This document shows positions 5,088 to 13,800 of a DNA stretch of 64,000 bases, in pieces (position 1 is the first letter of the stretch; the number at the start of each line of letters is the position of its first letter). A program made the translations under genes and the position numbers. Origin of the DNA: Actinomycetes bacterium (GTDB lineage Bacteria; Actinomycetota; Acidimicrobiia; Acidimicrobiales; RAAP-2). A model generated the notes under the pieces. It had not been told where the DNA came from and searched no databases. It saw nothing but the letters and a program-made list of their open reading frames with translations. The stretch covers positions 604,608 through 668,607 of the forward strand of contig JAJZUS010000001.1 of assembly GCA_021848365.1 (NCBI GenBank), in the 5' to 3' direction.

Positions 5088-6395
5088 CTATCCCTCGCGT
5101 CGAAGCGCGGGGCCGATGGCGTAGAGGGGGATGTTCGTGACATCGCCCTGCTCGCGGAAGCGGGCCAGGGAGAATCGCCACGCCGTGCGCGGGTGGAATC
5201 GGTCGAGGTAACTGCGAAGGCTCTTCGACTTGACGTTGGTCGTCGCCTTCACCTCGATCGGGACGACGTGTCCGGCGCGCTCGATGGCGAAGTCGACCTC
5301 GGCGGACGCCTTCTCGGAACTCCAGTACGCCGGCTCCTCGTGACGGGCCGCGACGATCTGTTGGAGGACGTACTGCTCGGTGAGGGCCCCCTTGAACTCC
5401 TCGAAGATCCCCTCCCCCTGGAGGAGGACCGACGGCGCGAGACGCGACAGCGCGCCGAGCAGCCCCACGTCGAGCAGGAAGAGTTTGAAGATACGCGCGT
5501 CGACGTACGCGGAGAGCGGGCTAGCCGGTTTGGAGAACCGCGGCACCCGGTGTACGAGACCAGAATCGCTCAGCCACTGGACGGCCTCGGCGAAGTCTCG
5601 GGCTCGGGCACCGTCGCGGATGTGGGAGAAGATGTAACGCCCCTGTTCCCGGGCGAGCTGGGCCGGCAGGGAGGCCCACGCCTCGGCGATTCGACGACTC
5701 ACGAGGGGTGGCGCGTACGTGGCGAAGTCGTTCGCGTAGCCCGCCAAGATGTCGTCCTGGAGTCGTCGCGCATCCTCGAAGGAACCCGTGGCCGCGAAGC
5801 GGGCCACGGGTTCGGGCATCCCGCCCACGAAGAGGTACTGACGCAGTAGCTCGACGAGCCGATCGTGGAAGGGGTCGATGAGGCCCCAGTCCCGTTCCGT
5901 CACGAGGTCGGCGAGGGCCTCTTCACCGACGGCGCGCAGGAACTCGTCGAAGTCGAGCGGGTGGAGGTCGAGGAAGGCGACCTTGCCCACGGGGAACGAC
6001 GCGCCGGAGGATCGGAGGGCGACGCCGAGCAGGGAGCCGGCGGCGACCACGTGGATGTCGGGTCGCTGCTCCTGGAGGTACTTGAGGGCCGTGAGCGCCG
6101 CGGGGGCCTCCTGGATCTCGTCGATGATGAGGAGCGTCGAGTCGGGCTCGATCTCCGTGCCCGCCGCGATCGCCAAGCCGCGCAGTAACTGGTCGGCCTC
6201 GAGTCGTCCGGCGAAGACGGCGGTGGCGGAGGGGTCTCCCTGACAGTTGACGTACGCGGTCCGCTCGTACTCTCGCCGGCCGAACTCTCTCAGGAGCCAG
6301 GTCTTGCCCACCTGTCGAGCTCCCCGCAGGATCAGGGGTTTGCGCGCGACGTCGTGCTTCCACGCGAGCAACGACGAGTGGGCGACGCGTTCCAT
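5088..6395 (-). CDS. AAA-family ATP-binding protein with DUF4143 domain
   Basis: A 435-residue protein of the AAA_14/DUF4143 type. Walker A GARQVGKT lies at residues 25-32 and a Walker B region LLIIDEIQE near residue 100; the C-terminal half has the nuclease-like DUF4143 fold, ending with a PIEVKAT stretch. Members are common, patchily distributed and of unknown role. The ATG at 6395 has no Shine-Dalgarno but sits 6 nt after a TATCGT box, so it is probably leaderless. A large inverted repeat lies just upstream and is likely its operator. Being a lone gene between unrelated neighbours fits horizontal acquisition. Confidence 0.85.
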   Translation of the reverse strand: MERVAHSSLLAWKHDVARKPLILRGARQVGKTWLLREFGRREYERTAYVNCQGDPSATAVFAGRLEADQLLRGLAIAAGTEIEPDSTLLIIDEIQEAPAALTALKYLQEQRPDIHVVAAGSLLGVALRSSGASFPVGKVAFLDLHPLDFDEFLRAVGEEALADLVTERDWGLIDPFHDRLVELLRQYLFVGGMPEPVARFAATGSFEDARRLQDDILAGYANDFATYAPPLVSRRIAEAWASLPAQLAREQGRYIFSHIRDGARARDFAEAVQWLSDSGLVHRVPRFSKPASPLSAYVDARIFKLFLLDVGLLGALSRLAPSVLLQGEGIFEEFKGALTEQYVLQQIVAARHEEPAYWSSEKASAEVDFAIERAGHVVPIEVKATTNVKSKSLRSYLDRFHPRTAWRFSLARFREQGDVTNIPLYAIGPALRREG

Positions 6396-6581: not shown

Positions 6582-6610
6582 TTGCGCGAGCATACCCCGG
6601 GGGGTATACT
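6582..6610 (+). promoter_or_regulatory. Promoter of the sulfide/persulfide operon
   Basis: A -35-like TTGCGC at 6582-6587, a 17-bp spacer, and a -10 TATACT at 6605-6610. The repressor operator lies inside the spacer and over the first half of the -10. The next start codon is at 6652, behind a GGAAGGGGCGAG leader. Confidence 0.65.
6592..6607. promoter_or_regulatory. CstR/CsoR-type operator
   Basis: The site ATACCCCGGGGGGTAT has two perfect 7-bp arms, ATACCCC and GGGGTAT, around a GG centre. This is the form of operator bound by DUF156 repressors of the CsoR/CstR/RicR group. It overlaps the -10 box of the operon that encodes such a repressor, which makes autoregulation very likely. Confidence 0.8.
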
Positions 6611-8125: not shown

Positions 8126-8272
8126 GTGGACAACGCCGCGAGCGACATCGCGAACTCACCGCTCCCGACGCAGCAGACGCTGCGCCGACGCAACAACCTC
8201 GTCTTCCAGATGTGGCGATTCGTCGCGCTCAACGTGCGCTTCGTCACCATGATCTTCAAGGGAAACCACTAG
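8126..8272 (+). CDS. 48-residue basic, partly hydrophobic small protein
   Basis: A short reading frame with GTG start 7 nt after a GAGAGGA ribosome binding site, placed 16 nt after the SQR-like gene and 7 nt before the repressor gene. The N-terminal third is polar; after RRRNN a hydrophobic, aromatic segment (residues 24-44, including FQMWRFVALNVRF) follows and the protein ends KGNH. No family is recognised. The position and codon use argue that it is translated. It could be a membrane-associated partner of the SQR-like enzyme. Confidence 0.65.
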   Translation: MDNAASDIANSPLPTQQTLRRRNNLVFQMWRFVALNVRFVTMIFKGNH

Positions 8273-8606: not shown

Positions 8607-10247
8607 ATGAGAGTCGTCATCATCGGCGGCGTCGCCGGCGGCATGTCGGCCGCGACGCGACTGCGCCGCCTGGACAGTGACGCCGAGATCATCGTGCTCG
8701 AGCGCAGCGGCTACGTGAGCTACGCGAACTGCGGACTGCCGTACTTCGTCGGCGGCGTGATCAGCGACGAGGAGGACCTGCTGCTGCAGACCCCCGAGAG
8801 CCTGCACGCGCGCTTCCGGCTCGACGTGCGCGTGAGCAGCGAGGTCGTGGCGATCGAGCCGGTCACCCGCACGGTCAGCGTGCGCGAGCTGCCGGGCGAG
8901 GCCACCTACGACCTCGGCTACGACTTCCTGATCCTGAGCCCGGGGGCCTCGCCGGTCGTGCCGCCGATCCCCGGGATCGAGCGGGCCATGGTCCTGCGCA
9001 CGGTCGAGGACGTGGAGCGCATGGCCGCCTCGGTCGAGGACCAGCCCGAACGGGCCGTCGTCATCGGCGGTGGCTTCATCGGCCTCGAGATCACCGAGAA
9101 CCTGATCCACCGCGGCGTCCCGACGGCGCTCGTCGAGGCGACCGACCAGGTGATGGCGCCGCTCGACCCCGAGATGGCCCACCTGGTCGCCGACGAGCTG
9201 CGCCGCCACGGCGTCGACCTGCACCTGGCCAACTCGGTGACCCGCATCGACGAGGGTGGCGTCGTCCTCGCCTCGGGCGAGGTCCTCGCGGCCGATCTGG
9301 TGGTCGCCGCCATCGGCGTGCGCCCTGACGTGCGCCTCGCTCGCGAGGCCGGCCTCACGATCGGCGCTGCCGGCGGCATCGCCGTCGACGAGTTCAACCG
9401 CACGAGCGACGAGCGCATCTACGCGGTCGGTGACGCGGCGGAGAAGACCGACGCCCTGGATGGGGGCGCCACGCTGGTGCCGCTCGCGAACATCGCCAAT
9501 CGCCACGGCCGCGTGGTCGCCGACCACATCGTCGGTCGGCCGATCCGCCCGGTGTCGACGATCGGCACCGCCATCGTGAAGGTCTTCGACCTCGTCGTCG
9601 CGGCGACGGGCTGGAACGAGAAGCGACTCGCGGCCCAGGGCCGGGCGCACCTCGCGATCCATACCCATCCCGCCCACCACGCCGGCTACTACCCCGGCGC
9701 ACGCAAGATGGCGCTCAAGCTGCTCGTCGAGCCGACCTCCGGCGCGATCCTCGGCGCCCAGGCCGTGGGCACCGAAGGCGTGGACAAGCGCATCGACGTG
9801 ATCGCGACGGCCATTCGCGCGGGCCTCACCGCGCCCGAGCTGGCCGACCTCGAGCTCGCCTACGCGCCGCCCTTCGGGTCGGCGAAGGACCCCGTCAACA
9901 TGCTCGGCTACGTGGCGGAGAACCTCCTCACCGGCCTCGTGGAGTCGGCCCAGTGGCACGAGACCCGGCCCCTCGCCGAGCAGGGGTACCTCCTGCTCGA
10001 CGTGCGCACGCCCGGCGAGTTCGCCCGAGGCACCGTGCCGGGGGCCCGGAACATCCCCGTCGACGAGCTGCGCGACCGTATGTCCGAGATCGACGCCCGC
10101 GACGTCGTGGTGATCTGTCAGGTGGGCCAGCGTGGCCACGTGGCCACGCGACTCCTGCGCGCTCACGGCTTCAACGCGCGAAACCTCTCCGGCGGCTACC
10201 AGACCTGGCACACCTCGCCGGCGGCCATCCCCGCGCTCGTCCACTGA
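8607..10247 (+). CDS. CoA-disulfide reductase/rhodanese fusion (NAD(P)H-dependent persulfide reductase type)
   Basis: A 546-residue two-domain protein. Residues 1-450 are a pyridine nucleotide-disulfide oxidoreductase with GGVAGG at 7-12, a single redox Cys42 in SYANCGLPY, and a second Rossmann motif VIGGGFIGLE. Residues 455-546 are a rhodanese domain with active Cys504 in CQVGQRG. Proteins of this design reduce CoA or glutathione persulfides and polysulfides with NAD(P)H. It is the fourth gene of the CstR-controlled operon, so persulfide clearance is the most likely job. The ATG follows an AAGGAGACAAGAG leader. Confidence 0.88.
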   Translation: MRVVIIGGVAGGMSAATRLRRLDSDAEIIVLERSGYVSYANCGLPYFVGGVISDEEDLLLQTPESLHARFRLDVRVSSEVVAIEPVTRTVSVRELPGEATYDLGYDFLILSPGASPVVPPIPGIERAMVLRTVEDVERMAASVEDQPERAVVIGGGFIGLEITENLIHRGVPTALVEATDQVMAPLDPEMAHLVADELRRHGVDLHLANSVTRIDEGGVVLASGEVLAADLVVAAIGVRPDVRLAREAGLTIGAAGGIAVDEFNRTSDERIYAVGDAAEKTDALDGGATLVPLANIANRHGRVVADHIVGRPIRPVSTIGTAIVKVFDLVVAATGWNEKRLAAQGRAHLAIHTHPAHHAGYYPGARKMALKLLVEPTSGAILGAQAVGTEGVDKRIDVIATAIRAGLTAPELADLELAYAPPFGSAKDPVNMLGYVAENLLTGLVESAQWHETRPLAEQGYLLLDVRTPGEFARGTVPGARNIPVDELRDRMSEIDARDVVVICQVGQRGHVATRLLRAHGFNARNLSGGYQTWHTSPAAIPALVH

Positions 10248-10300: not shown

Positions 10301-10465
10301 ATGTGCAGTCGAGTGACGTGCCGGACCTGCGGCAAGCCGACGTGGAGCGGATGCGGTAACCACATCGAGCAGGCGCTGGCGGGCGTGCCCAAGGCCGACC
10401 GCTGCCAGGGCCACGAGAGCCCGGCGGGCTCGGGCGGCTTCATGTCGCGCCTATTCTCTCGGTGA
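10301..10465 (+). CDS. 54-residue Cys/His-rich putative zinc-binding small protein
   Basis: A short gene with a GAAAGGAAACAG ribosome binding site. It has five cysteines (2, 7, 10, 18, 35) and two histidines (21, 38), arranged as CRTCGKPTWSGCGNH and RCQGH, as in small zinc-ribbon-like proteins seen in many genomes without known function. The basic C-terminus follows a Gly/Ser linker. It lies 53 nt after the rhodanese fusion and its stop overlaps the start of the methyltransferase gene. The Cys content could suit metal or sulfane-sulfur binding. Confidence 0.7.
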   Translation: MCSRVTCRTCGKPTWSGCGNHIEQALAGVPKADRCQGHESPAGSGGFMSRLFSR

Positions 10466-11238
10466 TGAACGCAGCCGCGCGGTGGCGTGACGCTCTGGCG
10501 GAGTGGGCCATCCCCGACGCCATCCTGTCTCAGGCCCCGGAGAGCCCGTGGATTCACCCCCCGGCGCTCTTCGGGCTGCCCGAGCGGATCGAGGACACGC
10601 CGTCGCACGCCCGCGCGCGCGAGGCCCTGCCCGAGGGCGGGTCCGTGCTCGACGTCGGGTGCGGTGGGGGGATCGCGGCCTACGCGATCACCCCACCCGC
10701 CCGCCGGGTGATCGGCGTCGACCACCAGGCGGCCATGCTCGCCATGTTCCGCGAGGCCGGCGCGGCCCGCGGGGTCGAGGTCCTCACCGTGGAGGGCGAC
10801 TGGCCGGCCGTCGCGTCGATCACGCCCGTCGCCGACGTCGTGACGACCCACCACGTCGTCTACAACGTGGGCGACATCGTGCCCTTCCTCGAGGCCCTCA
10901 CCGACCACGCGCGACGTCGCGTGGTCGTCGAGATGCCCGAGCGCCACCCCCTGGCGGGGATGACGCCCGCCTGGCGACACTTCTGGGACCTCGATCGGCC
11001 GGACGAGCCGACCCCCGAGGACCTGCTCGCCGTCCTCGCCGAGATGGGCGTCGCGGCGCACTCGGAGTACTTCACGGGCTCGATGCGCGGCGAGGTCGAC
11101 CTCGATCAGGCGGCTCACTTCACTCGGATTCGCCTCTGCCTCGCGCCCGAGCGCGAGGGCGAGGTCCGCGAGTTCCTCGCGGCCCAGGCGGCGACGCCGG
11201 GGCGGGCGCTGCGGACGATCTGGTGGGACGTCGCCTAG
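10462..11238 (+). CDS. Class I SAM-dependent methyltransferase
   Basis: A 258-residue methyltransferase with SAM motif I VLDVGCGGG at about residues 57-65 and an acidic residue closing strand 2 (VIGVDHQ). Substrate is unknown. GTG at 10462 (overlapping the previous stop as GTGA) or the ATG one codon later may be the start. Translational coupling to the Cys-rich small protein puts it at the end of the sulfur operon, though a functional link to persulfide metabolism is only positional. Confidence 0.75.
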   Translation: MMNAAARWRDALAEWAIPDAILSQAPESPWIHPPALFGLPERIEDTPSHARAREALPEGGSVLDVGCGGGIAAYAITPPARRVIGVDHQAAMLAMFREAGAARGVEVLTVEGDWPAVASITPVADVVTTHHVVYNVGDIVPFLEALTDHARRRVVVEMPERHPLAGMTPAWRHFWDLDRPDEPTPEDLLAVLAEMGVAAHSEYFTGSMRGEVDLDQAAHFTRIRLCLAPEREGEVREFLAAQAATPGRALRTIWWDVA

Positions 11239-11343: not shown

Positions 11344-12741
11344 ATGAGTGCACTACTCGCTGGTATCTCCACCCTGACCCTGGCCCGGTGGCAGTTCGCC
11401 GTGACCACCGTCTTCCACTTCCTGTTCGTCCCCCTGACGATCGGCCTGTCGCTGCTGGTGGCCATCTTGCAGACCGCGGCCTACCGCACGGGTGACGAGG
11501 CCTGGGAGCGGGCGACGCGCTTCTTCGGCAAGCTCTTCCTCGTCAACTTCGCCATTGGCGTGGTGACCGGGATCGTGCAGGAGTTCCAGTTCGGCATGGA
11601 CTGGTCGCGCTACTCGGTCTTCGTCGGCAACATCTTCGGCGCGCCCCTCGCCATCGAGGGCCTACTCGCCTTCTTCATGGAGTCGACGTTCCTCGGCGTC
11701 TGGATCTTCGGGCGCGGCCGGGTGAGTCCTCGGGTCCACGTCCTGTCGATCTGGCTGGCGAGCCTCGGCACGATCCTGTCAGCCGCCTTCATCGTGGCGG
11801 CCAACGCGTGGATGCAGCACCCGGTCGGCTACGCGATCGACCCGCGGACCCACCAGGCCGTGATGACGAACTTCTGGGCCGTCATGACGAACTCGACCTT
11901 CGTCCTCGAGTACGGGCACGTCCTCTTCGCGGCCTTCCTGACCGGGGCCGCCTTCCTCCTCGGGGTCGCCGCGTGGCACCTGCGCCGGGGCCACGACACC
12001 GCGGCCTTCGCGAAGGCCGCGCGCGTCGGCGTCGTCGTCGTGCTCATCGCCGCGGTCGGCACGATCTTCCTCGGCGACTCCCAGGGCAAGCAGATGGAGA
12101 CCCAGCAGCCCATGAAGATGGCCGCCGCGGAGGCCCTCTACGACACGACGAGCGCCGCCTCCTTCTCGCTGCTCACCATCGGCAACCTCTCGGGCAACCC
12201 GATCTTCCAGGTTCGCGTGCCCCACATCCTCTCGGTCCTCGCGACCAACACCTGGGACGGCCAGGTGGAGGGGATCCACCAGCTCCAGGCCCAGGCGACG
12301 AAGAAGTACGGCGCGGGCAGCTACGTGCCGGTCATCTGGCTCCTCTACTGGACCTTCCGGATCATGGTGGGCCTCGGCATCCTCCTGCTCGCGCTCGGGG
12401 CCATCGGCCTCTGGCTGATGCGCAAGCGCCGCCTCGAGCAATCGCCGCGCTTCCTGCGCTTCGCCGCCTGGATGATCCTGGCGCCCTTCATCGCCAACTC
12501 GGTGGGCTGGATCTTCACCGAGGTCGGTCGTCAGCCCTGGGTCGTCTACGGGTTGCTCAAGACCTCGAACGCCGTCTCGGTGATCTCGCCCGGCTACGTG
12601 GCGACGAGCCTCATCGGCTTCACCGCGATCTACACCGTCCTCGCGATCATCGAGATCGCGCTCATGATCCGCCTGGCCCGGATCCCGGAGGCGCCGCTGT
12701 CGCCCGCCGAGGCCGAGGCCGCGCCCGAGCTCGTCTACTAG
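11344..12741 (+). CDS. cydA: Cytochrome bd ubiquinol oxidase subunit I
   Basis: A 465-residue membrane subunit carrying hemes b558, b595 and d and the quinol site of the bd-type terminal oxidase, which has high oxygen affinity and resists sulfide and NO. It begins LARWQFAVTTVFHFLFVP, with the N-terminal heme-ligand His25. A GRQPW motif near the C-terminus (EVGRQPWVVYGLLKT) and about nine membrane segments are visible. The Q loop is of the short type. Being next to a sulfide operon fits a sulfide-tolerant oxidase. Confidence 0.95.
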   Translation: MSALLAGISTLTLARWQFAVTTVFHFLFVPLTIGLSLLVAILQTAAYRTGDEAWERATRFFGKLFLVNFAIGVVTGIVQEFQFGMDWSRYSVFVGNIFGAPLAIEGLLAFFMESTFLGVWIFGRGRVSPRVHVLSIWLASLGTILSAAFIVAANAWMQHPVGYAIDPRTHQAVMTNFWAVMTNSTFVLEYGHVLFAAFLTGAAFLLGVAAWHLRRGHDTAAFAKAARVGVVVVLIAAVGTIFLGDSQGKQMETQQPMKMAAAEALYDTTSAASFSLLTIGNLSGNPIFQVRVPHILSVLATNTWDGQVEGIHQLQAQATKKYGAGSYVPVIWLLYWTFRIMVGLGILLLALGAIGLWLMRKRRLEQSPRFLRFAAWMILAPFIANSVGWIFTEVGRQPWVVYGLLKTSNAVSVISPGYVATSLIGFTAIYTVLAIIEIALMIRLARIPEAPLSPAEAEAAPELVY

Positions 12742-12750
12742 GAGGTGGCC

Positions 12751-13800
12751 GTGTTCGCCGTCACCGCATCACCGAGCGGCCTCGAGCAGCTCTGGTTCGC
12801 CCTCATCGGAGTGCTCTGGCTGGGGTACTTCTTCCTCGAGGGCTTCGACTTCGGCGTGGGGGTCCTGCTCCCGTTCGTCGCGCGCGACGACGTCGATCGG
12901 CGCGTCGTCATCAACAGCATCGGGCCCGTCTGGGACGGGAACGAGGTGTGGCTGCTGGTGGCCGGCGGGGCGACCTTCGCGGCCTTCCCCCTCTGGTACG
13001 CGACTGTCTTCTCGGGCTTCTACCTCGCCCTCTTCGTCGTGCTGGCGGCCCTCATCGTGCGCGGGATCGCCTTCGAGTTCCGGCACCGGCGCGACGACGC
13101 CCGGTGGCGGCGGGCCTGGGACCGGGCCATCTTCTGGGGGTCGGCCCTGCCGGCCCTGCTCTGGGGAGTCGCCTTCGCGGACTTCGTCCACGGGGTGCCG
13201 ATCGTCGCGGGCGGGGCCTGGACCGGGACCTTCTTCGACCTGGTGAAGCCCTACGCGCTGCTCGGCGGACTGGCCACCCTGTCGCTCTTCACCCTCCACG
13301 GCGCCACCTACCTCGGCCTGAAGGCCGAGGACCCGGTGCGCGAGAACGCGCGCGCGGTCGGTCAGCGCCTCGCCCCGGTGACCTTCGTGCTGGTGACCGC
13401 CTTCCTCGGGTGGACCTACCTCAGCGCCCACGCCTGGCACCACGTCGGACTGGTCCCGCCGCTGCTGCCGATCCTCGCGGTCGGCGTGCTGGCCGCCGTC
13501 GGGTGGCTGATCGGTGAGCGCATGGAGGGCTGGGCCTTCGTGGCGACGGCCTTCGTCGTGCTGGCGCTCTTCACGACGTTGCTGCTGGACCTCTACCCGA
13601 ACGTGCTCGTCAGCTCGGTGAGGACCTCCTACGACCTCAGCATCGTCGCGAGCGCCTCGCATCCCTACACTCTGAAGGTGATGAGCTGGGTAGCGCTGAT
13701 CTTCACGCCCTTCGTGCTCGTCTACCAGGGCTGGACGTACTGGGTGTTCAAGAAGCGGGTCGGCCGTCCCGGGCGAGTCGAGCAGCCCACCGAGGCCTAG
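12751..13800 (+). CDS. cydB: Cytochrome bd ubiquinol oxidase subunit II
   Basis: A membrane subunit of about 349 residues that pairs with CydA. The start LEQLWFALIGVLWLGYFFLEGFDFG is typical, including the GFDFG motif, and WDGNEVWLL follows. GTG at 12751 is preferred over GTG at 12745, because the AGGAGG ribosome binding site ends too close to the first one. It starts 9 nt after cydA, so the two form one operon. Confidence 0.94.
   Translation: MFAVTASPSGLEQLWFALIGVLWLGYFFLEGFDFGVGVLLPFVARDDVDRRVVINSIGPVWDGNEVWLLVAGGATFAAFPLWYATVFSGFYLALFVVLAALIVRGIAFEFRHRRDDARWRRAWDRAIFWGSALPALLWGVAFADFVHGVPIVAGGAWTGTFFDLVKPYALLGGLATLSLFTLHGATYLGLKAEDPVRENARAVGQRLAPVTFVLVTAFLGWTYLSAHAWHHVGLVPPLLPILAVGVLAAVGWLIGERMEGWAFVATAFVVLALFTTLLLDLYPNVLVSSVRTSYDLSIVASASHPYTLKVMSWVALIFTPFVLVYQGWTYWVFKKRVGRPGRVEQPTEA

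Follow-up and report, generated by a model that had tools for sequence, protein, structure and literature searches.

The system closest to the locus analysed here is that of ScCsoR (SCO0620) in Streptomyces coelicolor, an actinobacterial DUF156 repressor with two cysteines 29 residues apart (Cys37 and Cys66). ScCsoR binds the 16-bp sequence ATACCn6GGTAT, which is an N4 site in the terms used here (four bases between ATACCC and GGGTAT half sites; N5 sites have five). It controls a rhodanese gene and its own gene, and polysulfide releases it (PMC7533328). Staphylococcus CstR, the regulator of the cst operon, has the same two-cysteine layout with an Asn at the position of the CsoR copper-ligand His, and the Staphylococcus plasmid cst operons that we examined carry N4 sites. 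The copper CsoRs of Streptomyces lividans, S. aureus and Bradyrhizobium share the family and the half sites but differ in having Cys-His-Cys ligands, an N5 spacer and control over copper export (PMC3902906, PMC5947656, PMC5057107). Thermus thermophilus TTHA1953 is a CsoR-family regulator of sulfur oxidation; it differs in that it controls the Sox pathway, and no response to NaHS was found there (PMC10318464).

In the 64-kb stretch of DNA that we analysed (the window), a sulfur operon (Table 1) encodes a DUF156 repressor with the same cysteine separation as ScCsoR, and its candidate operator fits the ScCsoR sequence letter for letter (PMC7533328). The targets differ. ScCsoR acts on persulfide dioxygenase, TauE and rhodanese genes and Staphylococcus CstR on CstA, CstB and TauE, whereas the candidate targets here are sulfide:quinone oxidoreductase (SQR), a fusion of a CoA-disulfide-reductase-like protein (CoADR) to a rhodanese, thioredoxin, a further rhodanese, a YgaP-TM/DUF302 unit and a small Cys protein. 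The circuit itself is of an already known kind, with a close precedent in S. coelicolor; a rule of operator spacing and an unnamed regulon protein go further.

Table 1. Features of the predicted promoter, operator and sulfur operon (positions in the window).
Feature	Position	Strand	Basis
-35 element TTGCGC	6582..6587	+	3/6 to consensus; conserved in relatives
CstR operator ATACCC-CGGG-GGGTAT, N4 spacer class (predicted)	6592..6607	.	Sequence and conservation in relatives' SQR promoters
-10 element TATACT	6605..6610	+	5/6 match; overlaps operator 3' arm
SQR, 485 aa	6652..8109	+	PDB SQR 3sz0, E 8e-35; Pfam Pyr_redox_2
48-aa small protein, GTG start	8126..8272	+	Directly after SQR; no family
CstR-type DUF156 repressor, 94 aa	8280..8564	+	Pfam PF02583, 77.3 bits
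CoADR-like protein (Cys42) fused to rhodanese domain (Cys504)	8607..10247	+	TIGR03385, Pfam Rhodanese
54-aa Cys-rich protein MCSRVTCRTCGKPTWSGCGNH...	10301..10465	+	Unnamed family; invariant C2 C7 C10 C18 H21 C35
SAM methyltransferase, candidate regulon neighbour	10462..11238	+	Pfam Methyltransf_25/11; overlaps stop of 54-aa gene

The initial annotation placed a perfect ATACCCC/GGGGTAT dyad in the -35/-10 spacer of a promoter. The dyad is exactly as described: the 16-mer ATACCCCGGGGGGTAT at 6592-6607 has arms at 6592-6598 and 6601-6607 around a central GG. It fills the 17-bp spacer between TTGCGC and TATACT and shares its final three bases with the start of the -10 box. Among the 203 perfect 7-bp dyads in the window it alone has the ATACCC/GGGTAT make-up, and it is the single match to ATACCCN4GGGTAT at up to two mismatches. 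By itself a single loose match in 64 kb carries little weight, since 33 of 100 shuffles of the window also give at least one such match. A simple sigma-70 scan did not flag the 6582-6610 region, since TTGCGC agrees with the consensus at only three of six bases; we dropped the scan as proof of a promoter and used conservation instead. In eight SQR promoters (that of the window and L119, L166, L200, L201, L202, L207 and L226) the elements TTGCG(C/T) and TATA(C/G)T, 17 bp apart, and the register of the dyad are conserved, and the four central operator bases vary, which is the pattern that an operator embedded in a promoter should leave. The proposed promoter thus holds in its position, its overlap with TATACT and its conservation, with a -35 element that is weak. 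The dyad is almost certainly the landing pad of a CstR-type sulfur-stress repressor. The divergent neighbour at 5088-6395 encodes an AAA_14/DUF4143 ATPase that is probably unrelated to the sulfur operon.

The operon has the gene content first proposed for it, namely SQR, a rhodanese fusion, small proteins and a DUF156 repressor. SQR carries a CTCEGAAFE motif (Cys177/Cys179). The fusion scores 60 bits against Pfam Rhodanese and 459 bits against TIGR03385, below that model's cut-off of 578.8. The 48-aa protein, with no Pfam or NCBIfam match and seven relatives in 198 genomes of the order, is a possible SQR partner given its place directly 3' of the SQR gene. Cytochrome bd oxidase genes lie 3' of the operon at 11344-13800, and an N4 site precedes cydA in another genome (L278).

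The repressor has the two cysteines 29 residues apart that had been claimed for it (Cys42 and Cys71), and Ser67 stands where CsoR has its copper-ligand His, so that the Cys-His-Cys set of Cu(I) ligands is broken. Its match to PF02583 is firm (E 1e-21), and its scores against the NCBIfam equivalogs FrmR (33.3 of 133 bits) and RcnR (32.2 of 138) fall short of both cut-offs. The best PDB matches, 7mq1-7mq3, are deposited as CsoR; we take them to be pneumococcal CstR. A Pfam search found no copper export genes in the operon, and a P-type ATPase instead adjoins the CsoR paralogs encoded elsewhere in the genome. One branch (support 90, not starred) splits His-bearing from His-less proteins in a tree that takes in 153 DUF156 proteins of all the loci collected; the tree is built on few columns and has some long branches that are possibly false ORFs. 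The window repressor is placed within a starred set of 25 His-less proteins on the CstR side.

Genome-wide, there are four perfect ATACCC-N4-GGGTAT sites against 0.034 expected from base composition (P about 6e-8), and a reversed control pattern gives none. Apart from the window operator, these sites lie ahead of a thioredoxin gene, of a gene for a single-domain rhodanese, and of a unit in which a YgaP-like-TM gene comes before DUF302 and methyltransferase genes; the thioredoxin-gene site overlaps a TATACT on the minus strand. The search was blind to gene content, so the position of all four ahead of genes for sulfur or thiol functions argues strongly for a sulfane-sulfur regulon. Across the 198 order genomes, in which a regulator was scored as present on E-value alone, 46 of the 57 that encode a CstR-like protein have N4 sites, as against 23 of the 141 that do not encode one (Fisher 1e-17); at a stricter E-value cut the figures are 37 of 46 and 32 of 152. 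N5 sites likewise accompany CsoR (48/100 genomes versus 5/98, 1.5e-12). N4 sites are also present in 13 of 56 CsoR-only genomes and in 10 of 85 with neither regulator, which points either to errors in the E-value presence calls or to further uses of the site. In about a dozen cases an N4 site is followed by a gene for an MMPL-family transporter (L058, L301, L305, L325), and such genes adjoin CstR on Rhodococcus and Nocardia plasmids (L369, L372), a possible link between MMPL export and persulfide stress.

Two CsoR paralogs with Cys-His-Cys ligands are encoded next to a P-type ATPase in the genome of the window. At their sites the half sites of the window operator flank five central bases, and these sites are the only two N5 matches in the genome at up to one mismatch. 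The same division holds at the order loci, where 22 of 30 CstR genes have an N4 site and none an N5 site, and 23 of 30 CsoR genes an N5 site and none an N4 site. Near the DUF156 genes of all loci, named plasmids of Staphylococcus, Enterococcus, Lactiplantibacillus, Paenibacillus, Nocardia, Mycobacterium, Rhodococcus, Cytobacillus and Niallia included, His-less genes have N4 sites in 67 cases (one with an N5 site as well) and an N5 site only in one, and His-bearing genes have N5 sites in 28 cases and N4 sites in none. The exception is on a Meiothermus plasmid (L370), where a His-less DUF156 protein with Tyr at the His position is encoded beside rhodanese genes and has N5-like sites only. Neither type of site lies within 700 bp of 46 of the 114 His-less genes, as would be expected of genes internal to an operon, such as that of the window. 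Published sites fall the same way: the S. lividans CsoR consensus ATATACCCCTNAGGGGTATAT (PMC3902906), the S. aureus copA and copX sites (PMC5947656) and the Bradyrhizobium and Corynebacterium CsoR boxes (PMC5057107) are N5, and the polysulfide-released ScCsoR binds an N4 site (PMC7533328). As read from these sequences, the rule is that CstR-type His-less regulators go with N4 sites and copper CsoRs with N5 sites, and the window site is N4. In the literature searched, outside the primary S. aureus CstR papers (Grossoehme 2011, Luebke 2014, Fakhoury 2021), we found no earlier statement of this rule.

Identical half sites and the presence of two Cys-His-Cys CsoR paralogs in the same genome could be taken to mean that the dyad is a copper operator, repressed by the linked DUF156 protein or by a CsoR paralog and released by Cu(I). 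We consider this very improbable, because the two copper-type paralogs own N5 sites beside the P-type ATPase; moreover, the linked protein lacks the copper His, the N4 spacer departs from the N5 of copper CsoRs both here and in published sites, and the regulon consists of sulfur genes. Scarcely better are the prospects for a sensor of some other thiol-reactive agent (formaldehyde, quinones or disulfide stress), with the sulfur genes as part of a general thiol response. FrmR belongs to the same family, and genes for MMPL transporters and glutaredoxin-like, OsmC-like and SOD proteins follow N4 sites in other genomes, but the operon pairs SQR with a rhodanese, the two-cysteine layout is that of CstR, and ScCsoR, the nearest characterised actinobacterial relative, responds to polysulfide (PMC7533328). 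We set the copper and formaldehyde readings aside on the missing copper His, the N4 spacer, the sulfur regulon and the CstR-like cysteines.

A different doubt concerns only the idea that the spacer acts as a code. N4 and N5 may simply mark ancient DUF156 lineages and the sites they inherited, with the spacing itself not deciding what binds. On the DUF156 tree the spacer class switches once, together with the His, so the class belongs to two old lineages and the association does not come from many independent events. Against this, unlinked sites at many genes keep their class, and genomes with both regulators, that of the window included, hold the two classes apart. We regard the lineage explanation as unlikely, though with appreciably more in its favor than either alternative sensor, and we infer that N4/N5 spacing is a cause of CstR/CsoR specificity.

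The CstR reading itself is supported in every part that could be computed: family, loss of the His, the SQR/CoADR-rhodanese operon, the sulfur regulon and the N4 class. Because of the four sulfur-gene sites, Cys42 and Cys71 with Ser67, and the place of the repressor on the CstR side of the tree, we give a probability of about 0.9 that the operon is a CstR-type persulfide-sensing autoregulatory circuit. In such a circuit, the apo, thiol-form DUF156 tetramer would bind ATACCC-N4-GGGTAT in the SQR promoter, occupy the spacer and the -10 box, and block RNA polymerase. Sulfide oxidation by SQR, or a build-up of sulfane sulfur, would then presumably persulfidate Cys42 and Cys71 or bridge them by polysulfide. 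The modified repressor would leave, allowing SQR, the 48-aa protein, the repressor, the CoADR-rhodanese and the 54-aa protein to be made. Away from the operon, the same repressor would control the three units that have perfect sites of their own (thioredoxin, single-domain rhodanese and YgaP-like-TM/DUF302/methyltransferase). The DNA itself would keep the circuit apart from the two copper-type paralogs, with CstR reading TAC-X8-GTA (4-bp spacer) and CsoR reading TAC-X9-GTA (5-bp spacer).

In the family of the 54-aa protein, M1, C2, C7, C10, G17, C18, G19, H21 and C35 are invariant (pattern MCxxxxCxxC...GCGxH). Profile searches of Pfam, NCBIfam and PDB gave nothing significant, and we found no description of the protein in the literature searched. 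It is present in 60 of the 198 order genomes; in the reference genome collection it matches at least 581 stretches, of which the 80 best are all from Actinomycetota. On plasmids the gene often lies where the PLSDB gene table, which is incomplete, lists nothing, as between CstR and rhodanese genes on Curtobacterium pC1a. Per-locus counts of site targets were set aside as biased, because some loci had been collected through this protein; the frequencies given here rest on the 60 order copies, which were found by protein alone. An N4 site (at most one mismatch, within 150 bp) lies at 40 of these 60 distinct copies, against 1 in 6000 for base shuffles. In genomes scored CstR-positive, 34 of 34 copies either follow an N4 site or lie within a CstR operon, versus 9 of 26 elsewhere (P 8e-9). 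Among wider actinobacteria the site is found at 42 of 120 copies, and many others directly follow rhodanese/CoADR or CstR genes. Judged by these associations, the Cys-rich protein is a widespread actinobacterial member of the predicted CstR regulon.

In 28 of the 60 order copies the last base of the N4 site is the second of the start codon, which places the start codon inside the operator. All of these 28 have T as their first spacer base (elsewhere 17 of 168 do), and 16 are preceded by TG, features that would fit a TAnnnT, partly extended -10 element for a leaderless transcript starting at the ATG. A leaderless csoR transcript with its operator on the -10 box has been reported in Bradyrhizobium (PMC5057107). 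At six loci (L128, L136, L134, L145, L106, L146), ATGTCCGGACAT-like palindromes lie just upstream of the Cys-rich gene. Such palindromes are found at copies that have no CstR site, in genomes with no detected CstR, and L146 carries both motifs; these genes may have passed to a second regulator. An AlphaFold2 model of the 54-aa protein has a small beta-beta-alpha arrangement (mean pLDDT 77, pTM 0.48), and a PDB fold search with it gave no match better than E 5.6. We assign no fold beyond a knuckle-like Cys/His arrangement. The most likely role of the protein would be to bind zinc, or else to carry or repair sulfane sulfur.

Taken jointly, we lean modestly toward a picture in which an N4/N5 code separates the CstR and CsoR regulons within one cytoplasm, and the Cys-rich protein (about 38-70 aa, a probable zinc-knuckle) is an unrecognised core persulfide effector of actinobacteria. 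Its gene would often be leaderless, a single 16-bp element serving as -10 box, operator and start codon in much of the order. It is a real question how paralogs in the CsoR family that share their half sites stay off one another's promoters, and one that the N4/N5 rule would reduce to the insertion or deletion of one base. The rule would also let sulfur and copper regulons be assigned from genome sequence alone, and an unnamed gene family gains its first functional context and a testable role.
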